In this document: piece by piece, positions 9,177 through 63,665 of the stretch
Layout of the letters: each line of letters begins with the position of its first letter
Numbering within the stretch: the first letter of the stretch is position 1
Source: Defluviitaleaceae bacterium
GTDB taxonomy: Bacteria > Bacillota > Clostridia > Lachnospirales > WQUN01
Assembly (NCBI GenBank): GCA_009786925.1
Contig: WRGY01000127.1
Span: forward strand, 62,001-126,000
Direction: 5' to 3'
Length of the DNA stretch: 64,000 nucleotides
Made by a program: the position numbers and the translations under genes
The notes under the pieces: generated by a model
Database searches by the model: none
What the model saw: only the letters and a program-made list of their open reading frames with translations
Told to the model about the DNA's origin: nothing

Positions 9177-10411
9177 TGATACACTATCCTTCCTTCTAAT
9201 ATTGTGTACTCCACACGACCCGTAACTGTACGACCGTGGAAGGGGGTGTTTTTGCTCTTGCTCCTAAACCTGTTTTTGTTAATCTCGTGGACTACTGTGG
9301 GGTTGATTATTGTAATATCCGCCGCCGCGCCTATGGAGAGTGTACCGCAGGGCAGGTTTAAAATTTTTGCAGGGTTTTTTGTCATGGCCGCCACCATCTG
9401 CGAAGGGGTAAGTATGCCCTTTTCTACCAACTCCGTAATCGCCAGCGGCACTGCTGTTTCTAAACCGATTATACCATTCATCGCTCCTTCATAAGAAGCC
9501 TTTTCGTCGGCATGATGAGGGGCATGGTCGGTGGCGATTACAGAAATAACGCCATCTTTAAGAGCTTGGCAGATGGCCTCACGGTCTGTACGAGAACGCA
9601 AAGGGGGTGCCATTTTATAGTTTGCGGCATCAGGATTTTCGAGTGGGGGCATGTCGTCATATGTCAACGTAAAATGATGCGGGGTCACTTCTGCCGTCAC
9701 AGCTTGTCCCGCCTTTTGTGCTTGGCGAATGAGTTCTACGGCACCCGCAGTACTCACATGGCATATGTGGAGCGGCACTCCCGCCGCTTTTGCCAATATA
9801 ATGTCACGAGCCACGATGACATCCTCGGCTTCGTTACCCATCAATCGAACATCCTCGCAATGTGCAAGGATGGGAAGGTTTAAGGTTTTGGCTTTTTGCA
9901 TTGATTCTTCATACAAAACAGGATTTTCCACAGTTTTACCATCATCGCTGATTGCGGCTATACCTGCCGCTTTCATAGTAGCGTAGTCGGCAAATTTCAT
10001 CCCCGCAAGACCCTTTGTTATGCTGCCTATCGGGATTACATGAGCCGTGGATTTCTGCGCTTTGACATATTTTACTGTCTCGGCACAATCGCATGTCGGA
10101 GTAGTGTTTGGCATTGCACATACAGTCGTAAAGCCACCCGCCGCCGCCGCCGCTGTGCCTGTTTTTATTGACTCCTTATGCAGTTGGCCGGGGTCACGCA
10201 GATGCACATGCATGTCCAGCAAACCGGGCACTACCCACATACCCACAGCATCTATGACCACATCAGGCGACCCCACCGAAATTCCACTTTGCACAGACTC
10301 TATTTTTGAGTCTTGGACAAAAACATCTAATAACTCATCCATATTGTTTGCGGGGTCTATTACCCGCCCATTCTTGATTAAAATCTTCATGCAAAATACC
10401 AAAAAAGGCAC
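9170..10411 (-). CDS. pyrC: Dihydroorotase
   Basis: About 406-413 residues. Metal-dependent amidohydrolase cyclising carbamoyl aspartate. The first metal site is DMHVHLRDPGQ. Further ligands are seen in ILAHCED and ICHVSTAGAVE, and the catalytic Asp is in VIATDHAPHH. Homologues start around MKILIKNGRVIDP, i.e. ATG 10390, but only the GTG at 10411 lies near the strong AAGGAGG (10431-10437), and even that is 19 nt away with a hairpin between. The start is therefore uncertain. It is the first gene of the pyr operon; pyrB and carAB are not in the window. Confidence 0.94.
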   Translation of the reverse strand: MPFLVFCMKILIKNGRVIDPANNMDELLDVFVQDSKIESVQSGISVGSPDVVIDAVGMWVVPGLLDMHVHLRDPGQLHKESIKTGTAAAAAGGFTTVCAMPNTTPTCDCAETVKYVKAQKSTAHVIPIGSITKGLAGMKFADYATMKAAGIAAISDDGKTVENPVLYEESMQKAKTLNLPILAHCEDVRLMGNEAEDVIVARDIILAKAAGVPLHICHVSTAGAVELIRQAQKAGQAVTAEVTPHHFTLTYDDMPPLENPDAANYKMAPPLRSRTDREAICQALKDGVISVIATDHAPHHADEKASYEGAMNGIIGLETAVPLAITELVEKGILTPSQMVAAMTKNPAKILNLPCGTLSIGAAADITIINPTVVHEINKNRFRSKSKNTPFHGRTVTGRVEYTILEGRIVYQC

Positions 10412-10432
10412 AAACGATTATACGTTCGCGCC
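10407..10432 (-). promoter_or_regulatory. RNA hairpin between ribosome-binding site and start of pyrC
   Basis: On the minus strand GGCGCGAACG and CGTTTGTGCC pair over 10 bp, including two G-U pairs, around a TATAAT loop. The stem contains the last two G residues of AAGGAGG and the GTG codon at 10411. It could gate translation initiation of the operon or bridge the long gap to the start codon. No ligand or protein is suggested by the sequence. Confidence 0.5.
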
Positions 10433-10454
10433 TCCTTTCTTTTTTCTTAGAGAA

Positions 10455-10483
10455 ATTTTAGCACCATGGGTGGCTAATGTCAA
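10455..10483 (-). promoter_or_regulatory. Vegetative promoter of the pyr operon
   Basis: On the minus strand TTGACA, a 17-nt spacer, and TAAAAT. Transcription would start about 35-40 nt upstream of pyrC, leaving a leader that contains the ribosome-binding-site hairpin. Confidence 0.7.
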
Positions 10484-10524
10484 ACAGGGAAAGGGGAAAG
10501 AAGTGTTCGAAGCGAGGGTTCATT

Positions 10525-10598
10525 AAAAAACGCAGATGAAAGTCATCTGCGTGAGAGGGGGGACAAATTATGCGAGGCAAAGCCCAAATGTAAACTTT
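10525..10598 (-). ncRNA. Candidate small RNA or attenuated leader upstream of the pyr operon
   Basis: A minus-strand promoter (10605-10632) predicts a transcript of roughly 75 nt. It ends in a strong intrinsic terminator: CGCAGATGA and TCATCTGCG form a 9-bp stem with a 3-nt loop, followed by six T residues at 10525-10530. The body is C/U-rich (CCCCCCTCTC) just before the stem. It may be a free small RNA, or an attenuator leader with read-through into pyrC. No PyrR-binding consensus and no credible leader peptide with a ribosome-binding site were found. Confidence 0.5.
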
Positions 10599-10604
10599 TC
10601 GTAA

Positions 10605-10632
10605 ATTTTATCATATTATAGGATGATGTCAA
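10605..10632 (-). promoter_or_regulatory. Promoter of the candidate small RNA / leader
   Basis: On the minus strand TTGACA, a 16-nt spacer and TAAAAT. It lies about 15 bp from the LexA-like dyad that overlaps the divergent plus-strand promoter, so one regulator could influence both directions. Confidence 0.55.
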
Positions 10633-10646
10633 CTAAAATATTTTTT

Positions 10647-10686
10647 CGAACATGTGTTGACAACATATGTTCGTTTATCGTATTAT
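10647..10686 (+). promoter_or_regulatory. Promoter with LexA-like inverted repeat, upstream of the endolysin gene
   Basis: The arms CGAACATGTGTTG and CAACATATGTTCG form a 13-bp inverted repeat with one central base and a single mismatch. Each arm resembles the Gram-positive LexA box CGAAC-N4-GTTCG (12 of 14 positions when extended by one base). The -35 TTGACA (10657-10662) lies inside the dyad and the -10 TATTAT is at 10681-10686 (18-nt spacer). A repressor on the dyad would block RNA polymerase. SOS control of the endolysin is inferred. Confidence 0.6.
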
Positions 10687-10924
10687 ACACGCATCGAAAA
10701 CAAAAGGAGTGTCCGAATTGCGTTGGAAAGGGCGAGCGGAAGATTGCAGAGAGCGATTGCGTGCGCCGCGCAGCGCATTATCACGGCTAAAAAAGATTAG
10801 CCGACGGCGGCAACGTCGGAGGCAATCTTTTTCCGTGATACCAGCCGGAGCAAAGGCGCAGCATAGCGAACGCAACTTCCTCTCGCCCTTTCCAACGCAA
10901 CACGCATCGAAAACAAAAGGAGTG
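10687..10924 (+). mobile_element. MITE-like inverted-repeat element flanked by 25-bp direct repeats
   Basis: A perfect 25-bp direct repeat (10687-10711 and 10900-10924, containing CGAAAACAAAAGGAGTG) flanks about 188 bp. Inside are perfect 19-bp terminal inverted repeats, TTGCGTTGGAAAGGGCGAG at 10718-10736 and its complement at 10882-10900. A central hairpin spans about 10782-10837 (CACGG..AAAAGATT..GCCGACG pairing with its complement). There is no transposase, so it would be mobilised in trans or be a relic. The duplicated repeat carries the ribosome-binding site AGGAG, so the lysin gene now has two copies. Confidence 0.65.
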
Positions 10925-10930
10925 AAACAA

Positions 10931-11590
10931 ATGACAAGCAGTCGTAATATCTCTGACCTGCATCCCGTCGTTGCTCGCGGCTGTCGCGAGCTGATTAAGC
11001 GCATGGAAGCCGCCGACTTTCCTGCTGTAGGCATCTCTGCTACATTCCGTTGCCATGACGAACAAAACCGCCTGTACGCCCAAGGGCGCACCACCCCGGG
11101 CAGCATCGTCACAAACGCAAGGGGAGGCCAATCATGGCATAACTGGCGACTTGCGTTCGACATCTTCCAAAATATCCGCGGCCAAGAGTGGAACAATCCG
11201 CGCTTCTTCGAGACAGCGGGCAAGATTTGGGAACAAATAGGAGGAGAATGGGGTGGGAGCTGGACACAACTTGTGGACAGACCTCATTTCCAGTTTACAA
11301 ACGGTGCGACAATCGCACAGATGCAAGCAGGGCATGAGATTCCCGAAGATGCAGTGATGCCGTGGGAAGCCCTGCCAAAGGAGGTGAATAAAATGGCATA
11401 CAAAACAGTAAAAGAAATGCCCGACTGGGCCAGACCCGGCATACAACAACTAATAGACCTGCGTGTGCTTAACGGCCGCACGCCGGAAAACCTCGACGTA
11501 GACGAAAACATGATGAGGATTTTGCTCATAGTCCGCAATATGTTTGACCGCGCAGGATTGCTAGAAAGCATGGCATGTGATACTATGTAA
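10931..11590 (+). CDS. M15-family peptidoglycan peptidase (endolysin-like)
   Basis: 219 residues from the ATG at 10931, behind AGGAGTGAAACA; the track begins at 10667 by reading through the inserted element. The N-terminal VanY/CwlK-type M15 fold shows GISATFRCHDEQNRLYAQGR, the zinc segment SWHNWRLAFDIF and HFQF. It should cleave peptide cross-links of peptidoglycan (L-Ala-D-Glu or similar). The C-terminal 65 residues (EMPDWARPGIQQLIDLRVLNG) look like the helical tail of phage or clostridial lysins. There is no signal peptide and no holin beside it. Control by a LexA-like dyad suggests a prophage or lysis remnant; this is inference. Confidence 0.8.
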   Translation: MTSSRNISDLHPVVARGCRELIKRMEAADFPAVGISATFRCHDEQNRLYAQGRTTPGSIVTNARGGQSWHNWRLAFDIFQNIRGQEWNNPRFFETAGKIWEQIGGEWGGSWTQLVDRPHFQFTNGATIAQMQAGHEIPEDAVMPWEALPKEVNKMAYKTVKEMPDWARPGIQQLIDLRVLNGRTPENLDVDENMMRILLIVRNMFDRAGLLESMACDTM

Positions 11591-11610
11591 TATAATGAGG
11601 AGGTCATGCC

Positions 11611-12789
11611 ATGAACACAAACAGGAATTATAAAAACCTACAGGACAGTTATCTTTTCGCCACCATTGGCCAAAAGGTAAAAGCCTATACAGCAACAAAT
11701 CCCGACAAAAAAATAATCCGCATGGGTATAGGGGATGTAACGCTTCCCCTGGCCCCTGCGGTGATAACAGCCATGCAAAATGCCGTGGCCGAAATGGGTG
11801 TACCCGAGACATTCCGCGGCTACGGTGAGGACTATGGTTACGAGTTTTTGCGTACCGCGATTTCGGAGTATTATATTAAGAAAGGCGCGAACATCTCCCC
11901 CTCAGAGGTATTCGTGAGCGATGGTGCAAAGTGCGATGTAGCAAACATCCTTGACATATTTGCGGCAGGCAGTACCGCACTTATACCCGACCCTGTCTAT
12001 CCTGTTTATTCTGATACAAATATAATGGCGGGCAATAAAATCATCTTCACCCACGGCAATGAGGCAAACGGCTTCCTGCCCATGCCCGATGAAAGCATAA
12101 ACGCCGACATCATCTACATCTGCTCACCAAACAATCCCACAGGCGCAGTATACAACAAAGAACAACTGCAAAAATGGGTGGACTACGCCATTTCAAAGGA
12201 TGCAATCATCCTATATGACAGCGCGTATGAGGCATTTATACAGGACGACCTTCCGACCTCCATCTTCCAAATAAGCGGTGCCGAAAAATGCGCAATAGAA
12301 ATCGGTTCACTGTCAAAAACAGCAGGCTTTACAGGTACACGCTGTGGATATACAATAATACCGCATACGCTCGAACGTGACGGCATGAGCCTCCACAAAA
12401 TGTGGAGCCGCCGCCAAAGCACAAAATACAACCAGCTCCCCTACATCATCCAGCGCGGTGCAGAAGCCGCATTCCTGCCCGACGGTCTGGCTCAAAACAA
12501 AAAAAACATCGCATATTATTTGCAAAATGCAAAGCTGATGTCAGAGACATTCGACGGTCTGGGCATCCGGTATTGCGGCGGCAAAAACGCGCCGTATATT
12601 TGGTTAAAATGCCCCGATGGGCTAAAGAGCTGGGATTTTTTTGACGCACTGCTGGAGAAGGCCAATGTCGTAGGCACACCGGGCGCGGGCTTTGGCTCAC
12701 AGGGCGAAGGCTTTTTCCGCCTGTCAGCATTCGGAAGCAAAGAGAACACAATCGAAGCAATGGAAAGAGTAAAAAATTTTTTGAAATAA
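11611..12789 (+). CDS. dapL: LL-diaminopimelate aminotransferase
   Basis: 392 residues, a PLP aminotransferase of class I/II. It converts tetrahydrodipicolinate directly to LL-diaminopimelate, the short route to cell-wall DAP and lysine. Typical DapL features: the N-terminal YLFATIGQKVKAY, IRMGIGDVTLPLAPAV, RGYGEDYGYEFLR, and the PLP-lysine segment IEIGSLSKTAGFTGTRCGY. The ATG at 11611 follows GAGGAGG. htpG starts 25 nt downstream on the same strand. No distinct promoter is seen in the 20-nt gap after the lysin gene, so it may be read from upstream. Confidence 0.95.
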   Translation: MNTNRNYKNLQDSYLFATIGQKVKAYTATNPDKKIIRMGIGDVTLPLAPAVITAMQNAVAEMGVPETFRGYGEDYGYEFLRTAISEYYIKKGANISPSEVFVSDGAKCDVANILDIFAAGSTALIPDPVYPVYSDTNIMAGNKIIFTHGNEANGFLPMPDESINADIIYICSPNNPTGAVYNKEQLQKWVDYAISKDAIILYDSAYEAFIQDDLPTSIFQISGAEKCAIEIGSLSKTAGFTGTRCGYTIIPHTLERDGMSLHKMWSRRQSTKYNQLPYIIQRGAEAAFLPDGLAQNKKNIAYYLQNAKLMSETFDGLGIRYCGGKNAPYIWLKCPDGLKSWDFFDALLEKANVVGTPGAGFGSQGEGFFRLSAFGSKENTIEAMERVKNFLK

Positions 12790-61662: not shown

Positions 61663-62090
61663 TTACTTTTTATCAAAGGCAGGATTTATTGCGTACATGT
61701 TTTTTCTGTTCATACGTTCTTTTGTGATTTCAAGCCCTTCGCCAAAACGTTGAAAGTGGACGATTTCGCGCTCACGCAAAAAAATTATGGGGTCGCGCAC
61801 ATCAGGGTCATCCACCATGCGCAAGATATTATCGTAGGTGGCGCGTGCTTTTTGCTCTGCAGCCATATCTTCTACAATGTCAGCGATTACGTCGCCCTTG
61901 GACTGAAACCCACCTGCATTCCATGGCACACCCGAGGCAGAGACCGGATATATACCCGTCGTATGGTCTACAAAGTAGTCCTCAAAGCCCGCTTCTTTTA
62001 TTTCTGTGATGGAGAGATTGCGTGTTAGTTGGTACACAATTGTACCTATCATTTCTAAATGACCGAGTTCTTCCGTACCTATATATGTAT
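61663..62090 (-). pseudogene. cotJC: 3' part of cotJC (manganese catalase-like spore coat protein), cut by an element
   Basis: The frame reads IGTEELGHLEMIGTIVYQL, then YFVDHTTGIYPVSASGVPW, AAEQKARATYDNILRMVDDPDV and FLREREIVHFQRFGE, a strong match to CotJC, a ferritin-fold manganese catalase of the spore coat. The His and Glu metal ligands in EELGHLE and REREIVHFQ are present. About 60 N-terminal residues are missing: upstream of IGTEE the frame runs into the recombinase gene on the same strand. The missing 5' part should lie beyond the element. If the element excises in the mother cell, an intact gene would form. Confidence 0.88.
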
Positions 62091-63665
62091 CGAAATTGCA
62101 TACCCGGAGCCATGTTGAGCGGTTTTGACCAAAACATCTACGATGCTGACATCTACATTATACTTCTCCATCTTCCCGGACGATTCCCACCTTACCCTAA
62201 CACCAAAGGGTATAGAACTAATGAATATATCCACCAGGTTATCATTGCGGATTATTGCCTTATTAACCAATTCGCGATACAGCATTTCGTCTTTGGAATT
62301 CAGACCTGCTATGCTACGAATCTCTGCGACACAGGTATCATTTAATGCGACAATATTTTGCTGTAGACTGCCGGATATTTGGAGTTGGGCTTTTATTGCG
62401 GCAATATCGTTATCGTATCGTTCATTCATCAGTTTTAGGTCATCTTTGTTGATAGTTCCTTCGAACATCGCATTTATGGCTTTTTCTTTTTTATTGTTAA
62501 TATCGCCTATCCTGCCATGTAGTTTTTTAACATCCATAGATTTAACGTCTTGAGATAACACGGTTTTTATGTCATATGACAACTCTTTAACAATCTTTTC
62601 TTTATCGAATCCGATATGCGTGATGACAAATTTTACACAGGCAATAACCACTTTTTCGTTTATTGCAAAAGAGCCACAACTCCAAGCCTTGTATACTTCG
62701 CCATTTTTTAATTTCTTTTTGCGGCTTACAAAGTTTTTACCACATTCGCCACATACCAGCTTGCCACTGCACCAGTAGCGATTACTATGTTTTGATTTTT
62801 GCTCATTAGTTGGAGAACGCCTTGTTAGTTCTTTTTGCGTTTCTTCCCATATTTGTCTGCTTATTATTGGCTCGTGATGGTCGCGCAAATATATCATATC
62901 CTCATGCCCGCGATTATATTTTTTTTCATGGGTCAAATAATCAGGCGTAAAGGTCTTTTTTTGCAATAAGTCACCCACGTATTTTTCATTACGCAATACA
63001 CGCAAAATGGTTACATTGCTCCATTGTCCGGCTCGTTTGGGGCGCAGACCCGCTTCTTGCAATTCCCTTGCAATTACATGCGTACCCTTGTTTTCGTTCA
63101 AAAACTTGTGAAATATCAGACGCACTGTTTCCGTTTCATCATGGTTGATAATCAGCTTGCCATCTTTTACAAAATAGCCAAGCATATCCCGCCCAAAAAC
63201 TACTCCCGCCTTCATACGCTGTGTTTGTCCCCATTTTACACGTTCGGATGTTTTACGACTTTCTTCCTGCGCGATAGACGACATGATAGTCAGCCTTAGC
63301 TCACTATCAGGGTCAAGGGTATTTATGTTGTCAGCAATAAACAGAACACCGATACCAAGGTTTTTTAGTTCTCTTGTATATTTTAGACTATCGAGAGTGT
63401 TGCGAGCGAAACGGCTAATTTCCTTTGTTAATATCATGTCGATATTTTTCATTCTTGCTTCTGCAATCATGGAATTAAAGCCTTTGCGCTTTTTTGTTGA
63501 GGTTCCGGATATACCTTCGTCATAATAGATGTTGACCAAAATCCACCCTTTCTGATTTTTAATATAATCCATAAAATATTGTCGTTGACTGTTAAGAGAA
63601 TTAACCTGGTCGTCCTTGTCCGTTGACACTCGGCAATATGCGGCCACTCGCAGATTACGCTTCAT
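62079..63665 (-). CDS. Large serine recombinase (SpoIVCA-like)
   Basis: 528 residues. The resolvase domain has the catalytic serine in AAYCRVSTDKDDQVNS, plus LTKEISRFARNTLDSLKY and MSSIAQEESRKTSERVKWG. The recombinase domain (residues 170-290) and a zinc ribbon (LVCGECGKNFVSRKK.. with a later CGSFA) follow, then a coiled-coil tail. Its TAG stop falls in the cotJC side of the junction, so the gene abuts the attachment site, as spoIVCA does in the skin element. It should catalyse site-specific excision and integration. GAGGTG precedes the ATG. Confidence 0.95.
   Translation of the reverse strand: MKRNLRVAAYCRVSTDKDDQVNSLNSQRQYFMDYIKNQKGWILVNIYYDEGISGTSTKKRKGFNSMIAEARMKNIDMILTKEISRFARNTLDSLKYTRELKNLGIGVLFIADNINTLDPDSELRLTIMSSIAQEESRKTSERVKWGQTQRMKAGVVFGRDMLGYFVKDGKLIINHDETETVRLIFHKFLNENKGTHVIARELQEAGLRPKRAGQWSNVTILRVLRNEKYVGDLLQKKTFTPDYLTHEKKYNRGHEDMIYLRDHHEPIISRQIWEETQKELTRRSPTNEQKSKHSNRYWCSGKLVCGECGKNFVSRKKKLKNGEVYKAWSCGSFAINEKVVIACVKFVITHIGFDKEKIVKELSYDIKTVLSQDVKSMDVKKLHGRIGDINNKKEKAINAMFEGTINKDDLKLMNERYDNDIAAIKAQLQISGSLQQNIVALNDTCVAEIRSIAGLNSKDEMLYRELVNKAIIRNDNLVDIFISSIPFGVRVRWESSGKMEKYNVDVSIVDVLVKTAQHGSGYAISIHI

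Follow-up and report, generated by a model that had tools for sequence, protein, structure and literature searches.

A lone endolysin gene of the M15 family, set among chromosomal genes and not in a prophage, is conserved in its genus together with an SOS-type box on the -35 element of its promoter. The gene lies in the window, a stretch of 64 kb (contig C127:62001-126000) of the source genome (G000; 2.28 Mb, 90% complete). Damage-triggered lysis is known from intact and defective prophages, tailocins and the Alp system; the gene and its box described here are real and conserved, and they would fall among these damage-triggered lysis genes as a variant and not form a new category. We lean, with somewhat more belief than doubt, toward the view that the gene encodes an endolysin domesticated from a prophage, is derepressed by DNA damage and is probably partnered by an orphan holin. 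The coding features are as follows.

10931-11590, plus strand: lone M15C-type endolysin gene (L-Ala-D-Glu peptidase type), 219 aa, assigned from Pfam, PHROG and the start of its orthologues
11375-11578, plus strand: C-terminal module, probably for wall association, common to amidase-type endolysins of prophages in the genus

The original prediction of an M15 peptidase gene at this position is borne out by Pfam matches to Peptidase_M15_4 (2.4e-11) and VanY (1.4e-7) and by PHROG matches that are endolysins. The nearest solved structures are Ply500 (2vo9, 1.8e-33) and LysB4 (6akv, 3.1e-32), which resemble the product in the peptidase domain only; the gene differs from theirs in lacking a phage context. 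Residues R40, S68, H70, D77, D116 and H119 are invariant among 11 M15 homologues, and the product thus has the Peptidase_M15 domain with the conserved His/Asp/His of M15C endolysins. It is predicted from its family to be a wall-cutting L-Ala-D-Glu peptidase. The orthologues place the true start at ATG 10931. A 307-aa open reading frame from 10667 was considered as the gene and rejected, because its ATG lies 5' of the -10 element. The prophage amidase-type endolysins that share the C-terminal module adjoin holins, and the module is also found on two IMG/VR contigs. Named loci with the M15 gene or the module come mostly from Defluviitaleaceae and Clostridiales MAGs, which, on our reading of the isolate names, are of termite gut origin.

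No signal peptide or membrane segment is evident by eye in the product, so that it would have no route to the wall absent lysis or a holin. It is rather unlikely, in our estimation, that the enzyme instead remodels the wall without killing the cell, as a peptidase induced by damage at a low level that slows division. ChiZ (Rv2719c) of Mycobacterium gives this idea a precedent, being a damage-induced wall hydrolase that restrains division (PMC3989709), and both it and the M15 product are stand-alone chromosomal hydrolases. ChiZ differs, however, in its domain make-up, which includes a LysM domain, and in acting on division (PMC3989709), while the M15 product belongs to a phage endolysin family.

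The flanking genes in the source genome are pyr genes, dapL and an htpG-like gene, and no holin, capsid or tail genes were found in the region, just as the original prediction had described a lysin without phage neighbors among housekeeping genes. The M15 gene is present in 6 of 10 genomes of the genus, the five orthologues being 71-84% identical to the source copy. The six loci represent at least four chromosomal settings, none of them phage: the G006 gene is flanked by pyrC and dapL as in the source genome, the G008 gene by pyrC, and those of G007, G002 and G004 by other chromosomal genes. No adjacent holin or phage gene was seen at any of the six, the contigs of G008 and G002 being short. 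In some M15 homologues elsewhere, such as that of G020, a holin gene stands just upstream. The dapL start lies 42 bp past the M15 stop in G006 and 20 bp past it in the source genome; because dapL is so close in the latter, readthrough into this biosynthetic gene is possible, which fits poorly with tight repression. Near the window end (62079-63665) is a serine recombinase-like open reading frame, possibly of a mobile element.

These comparisons also bear on whether the lysin could simply be the last, decaying gene of a lost prophage, with its operator a relic. The architecture is of phage type and the C-terminal module is common to prophage lysins, as that account would have it. The M15 gene is, however, under purifying selection, with dN/dS of about 0.09-0.12 (0.09 against G006) compared with about 0.07 for the nearby dapL; moreover, its frame is intact in six species, its operator is conserved, and it occurs at several unrelated locations. 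We regard a decaying remnant as very improbable.

The control region upstream of the gene contains the following elements.

10530-10552, minus strand: terminator-like hairpin upstream of the M15 promoter, downstream of a divergent promoter match
10647-10673, plus strand: operator dyad CGAACATGTGTTG-A-CAACATATGTTCG, with 13-bp arms, 1 mismatch (12/13 pairs) and a 1-nt loop
10647-10660, plus strand: left box of the dyad, CGAACATGTGTTGA, read from the sequence
10660-10673, plus strand: right box of the dyad, ACAACATATGTTCG, the unit conserved in the genus
10657-10686, plus strand: sigma-70-type promoter, -35 TTGACA at 10657-10662, 18 nt, -10 TATTAT at 10681-10686, matching 11/12 consensus positions

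The 13-bp dyad that had been proposed to cover the -35 is thus present, overlapping TTGACA of the M15 promoter. Three distinct inverted repeats of this quality occur in the 64 kb window, against a mean of 0.48 in Markov simulations of the whole window. The overlapping boxes depart from CGAACATATGTTCG at 3 positions in one and 2 in the other. The Bacillus LexA consensus has 4 hits in the 64 kb window against 3.2 expected, which alone is not significant, and genome-wide it has fewer hits than the reversed control. With a 16-mer matrix dominated by lexA, the dyad ranks second in the window, in a whole-window scan that is not significant. Since consensus mismatches alone are not significant in 64 kb, support for a LexA-type box rests on conservation. 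Within the 100 bp promoter region, the dyad's LexA-type matrix score is 11.9 (P=0.0026).

The conserved unit is TTGACAACRTAYGTTCG, which precedes the M15 gene in G000, G006, G007, G008 and G002, that is, in five of six orthologues, which are not independent samples. In G004 the -35 box position is degenerate; a second box, strong in this genome, follows the -10 there and also in G002. At 11 loci with M15 homologues that do not belong to this promoter family, no box exceeds 6.3 bits. What is conserved in the genus is a single box on the -35, and only the source genome has two boxes in full overlap; of the overlapping LexA-like boxes originally described, the SOS-type box stands as a feature conserved in the genus and the double overlap does not.

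None of the viral contigs searched contains the exact operator string. The sole other close copy in the source genome, TTGACAACGTATGTTCG (L188:1106-2797, on G000:C7), precedes a gene for a tail-spike-like protein with YadA-head and Peptidase_S74 domains. The divergent promoter match (10632-10605, minus strand) agrees with consensus at 11/12 positions, and together with the terminator-like hairpin this strong match could yield a small RNA, roughly 70 nt long, from 10632-10530 on the minus strand. Hairpins also precede the M15 promoter in the orthologous loci of G006, G007, G002 and G004. An Rfam search of 10300-11700 gave no match.

The leader between promoter and gene carries an insertion that the original prediction did not mention.

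10687-10711, plus strand: copy 1 of a 25-bp direct repeat, ACACGCATCGAAAACAAAAGGAGTG, with a ribosome binding site followed by an in-frame TTG at 10718
about 10706-10899, strand not assigned: repeated hairpin element (MITE-like), cut short at the right end by comparison with other copies
10900-10924, plus strand: copy 2 of the 25-bp direct repeat, which supplies the ribosome binding site of the M15 gene

In all, 213 bp are inserted, and the ribosome binding site is duplicated. Since 213 is divisible by three and the first of the two ribosome binding sites faces the in-frame TTG at 10718, an N-terminally extended form of the M15 protein is possible. The source genome has eight further copies or large fragments of the element at 83-90% identity, plus shorter pieces, and the orthologous leader in G006 is without it. 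The leader RNA has a predicted fold of -112 kcal/mol (z -9.4). The 25-bp duplication is unusual, other copies seeming to have about 6-10 bp, and GGAGTG is both the end of the element and the ribosome binding site.

LexA is encoded in the source genome (TIGR00498, 1.3e-71; LexA_DNA_bind, 8.6e-26). LexA sites of C. difficile are of the GAACN4GTTT/C class (PMC4234289), and the M15 promoter box falls within the GAACN4GTTC/T class, with one half reading CAAC and not GAAC. The lexA promoters of the genus carry GAACAAATGTTTGCAA-type boxes, and the box is also found at uvrA in three genomes (G002, G004 and G003), at rmuC in two and at dinB in one. A matrix built solely from these lexA, uvrA, rmuC and dinB boxes finds a site in all six of the M15 promoters, each with P=0.014 or better. 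The original note proposed to look for the same dyad at recA, lexA and uvr promoters, and the outcome was negative: in the source genome no M15-type box is present at the recA, uvrA or rmuC promoters, and that of lexA carries CGCACAAATGTTTGCAA, which is of the same class as the M15 operator and different in sequence. No LexA-type box was found at recA in nine genomes of the genus (L032, L080-L087). The M15 box is thus of the right class for LexA, which is a candidate for its binder. LexA-class boxes were also observed upstream of murA in G000 and G001 (L172 and L099) and upstream of a relaxase-like (MobA-type) gene in G007 (L110, G007:C24).

The suggested search for a holin elsewhere in the genome did turn one up. 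A PF05105 search found one holin in the source genome, without adjoining phage genes, beside an S24 repressor and with related boxes.

L193:1880-3472 (G000:C92): conserved cassette of an orphan holin gene, a small HTH gene and a divergently oriented gene for an S24 repressor of self-cleaving type

The holin stands behind a gene for a 65-aa HTH protein, divergent from one for a 254-aa HTH-Peptidase_S24 protein that has a conserved ASAG (AG cleavage) site and the Ser/Lys pair. The cassette is present in seven genomes of the genus and in G029, G015, G033, G024 and G011, which represent three further genera of this family; viral contigs yielded no close relative of it. Co-occurrence of lysin and holin is imperfect, which counts against the preferred reading: the lysin of G002 is not accompanied by a PF05105 holin, and G003, G005 and G009 (the last a genome 71% complete) have the cassette without the lysin. 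That G002 has lost the S24 AG site as well as any PF05105 holin counts in favor of it. A perfect palindrome, ACCTTGTATACAAGGT, in the holin promoter of the source genome was considered as an operator and rejected because it is not conserved.

That the genome's single PF05105 holin has no phage genes beside it weighs against one further reading, in which the lysin is a helper that is co-induced with resident prophages, exits through their holins and hastens burst or host suicide. Holin-amidase pairs that include the lysin's C-terminal module do occur in prophages of the genus, and both these prophages and the lysin would respond to damage, but on present evidence we consider such a helper unlikely.

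The cassette supplies a second candidate repressor. Across the family, S24 leaders carry CGAACNNANGT right after the -10, which points to a variant of our preferred reading in which the S24/XRE repressor, not LexA, binds the M15 box, and lysin and holin form one dispersed regulon under a phage-type repressor that has been domesticated, much as lysis genes of Pseudomonas aeruginosa are governed by AlpR. In keeping with this, the conserved M15 boxes keep a CGAAC half, while the lexA and uvrA boxes keep GCAAAC. With a matrix built from S24 leaders of other genera, the M15 boxes score as well as with the LexA matrix; the attempt to tell the two binders apart by matrices failed on this equal fit, which for the same reason counts against preferring S24. 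G002 and G004, furthermore, have M15 boxes and yet no CGAACNNANGT-like box at the S24 gene, and the box in the S24 leader may in fact be one for LexA. We hold S24 binding to be a tentative sub-case, somewhat short of an even prospect.

Under the reading we prefer, that of a domesticated and damage-derepressed endolysin, the host would keep the M15 gene on its own, driven from a separate promoter, and a repressor of the LexA class, either LexA or the S24/XRE protein, would sit on the -35 box and keep it off. Because either candidate is of the RecA-triggered self-cleaving type, induction by damage is the expected outcome: the repressor would cleave itself and the enzyme would be made in the cytoplasm, from where, with the membrane opened, it would cut L-Ala-D-Glu bonds in the wall. 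The opening would most likely come from the orphan holin encoded elsewhere, which has related boxes in its control region. A damaged subpopulation might then lyse and release its contents, vesicles or large proteins.

A close parallel in arrangement is the Alp system of Pseudomonas aeruginosa (AlpR, AlpA, alpBCDE and ampDh3), in which lysis is governed by a self-cleaving repressor next to a small regulator and a holin, and the peptidoglycan hydrolase AmpDh3 is co-regulated at another locus (PMC7969949). As in Alp, the S24-HTH-holin locus is chromosomal and joins a self-cleaving-type repressor, a small regulator and a holin; the system would likewise be prophage-derived, with its hydrolase at a separate locus. 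Unlike AmpDh3, the hydrolase here is a phage-type M15 endolysin with a LexA-class box of its own, in Clostridia, and its induction is predicted. The endolysin of explosive lysis in P. aeruginosa and XlyA of B. subtilis PBSX are also wall-opening endolysins, are damage-induced and provide a route to vesicles and released DNA (PMC4834629, PMC5589764), but they sit in phage-tail clusters or defective prophages, whereas the M15 gene stands alone. Two overlapping LexA-type boxes on the promoter of a lethal gene are known from colicin cea8 (PMC4482635), which differs in having Gram-negative boxes, plasmid genes and a toxin rather than a lysin. Searching the literature for endolysins described in the words orphan or domesticated returned nothing, which is weak evidence of novelty.

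It is possible, although we would put it at rather less than even, that the gut clostridia of this family have a dispersed, phage-free self-lysis system, in which an orphan holin, governed by a vertically inherited S24 self-cleaving repressor, and the M15 lysin, encoded elsewhere on the chromosome, answer to operators of one class, as the tail-spike-like protein may do too. The system offers a concrete question about two genes, namely damage-induced lysis by way of the M15 enzyme and the holin. A conserved endolysin free of phage genes, along with a multi-genus orphan holin under a damage-type repressor, would show programmed lysis to be an ordinary chromosomal trait of clostridia.
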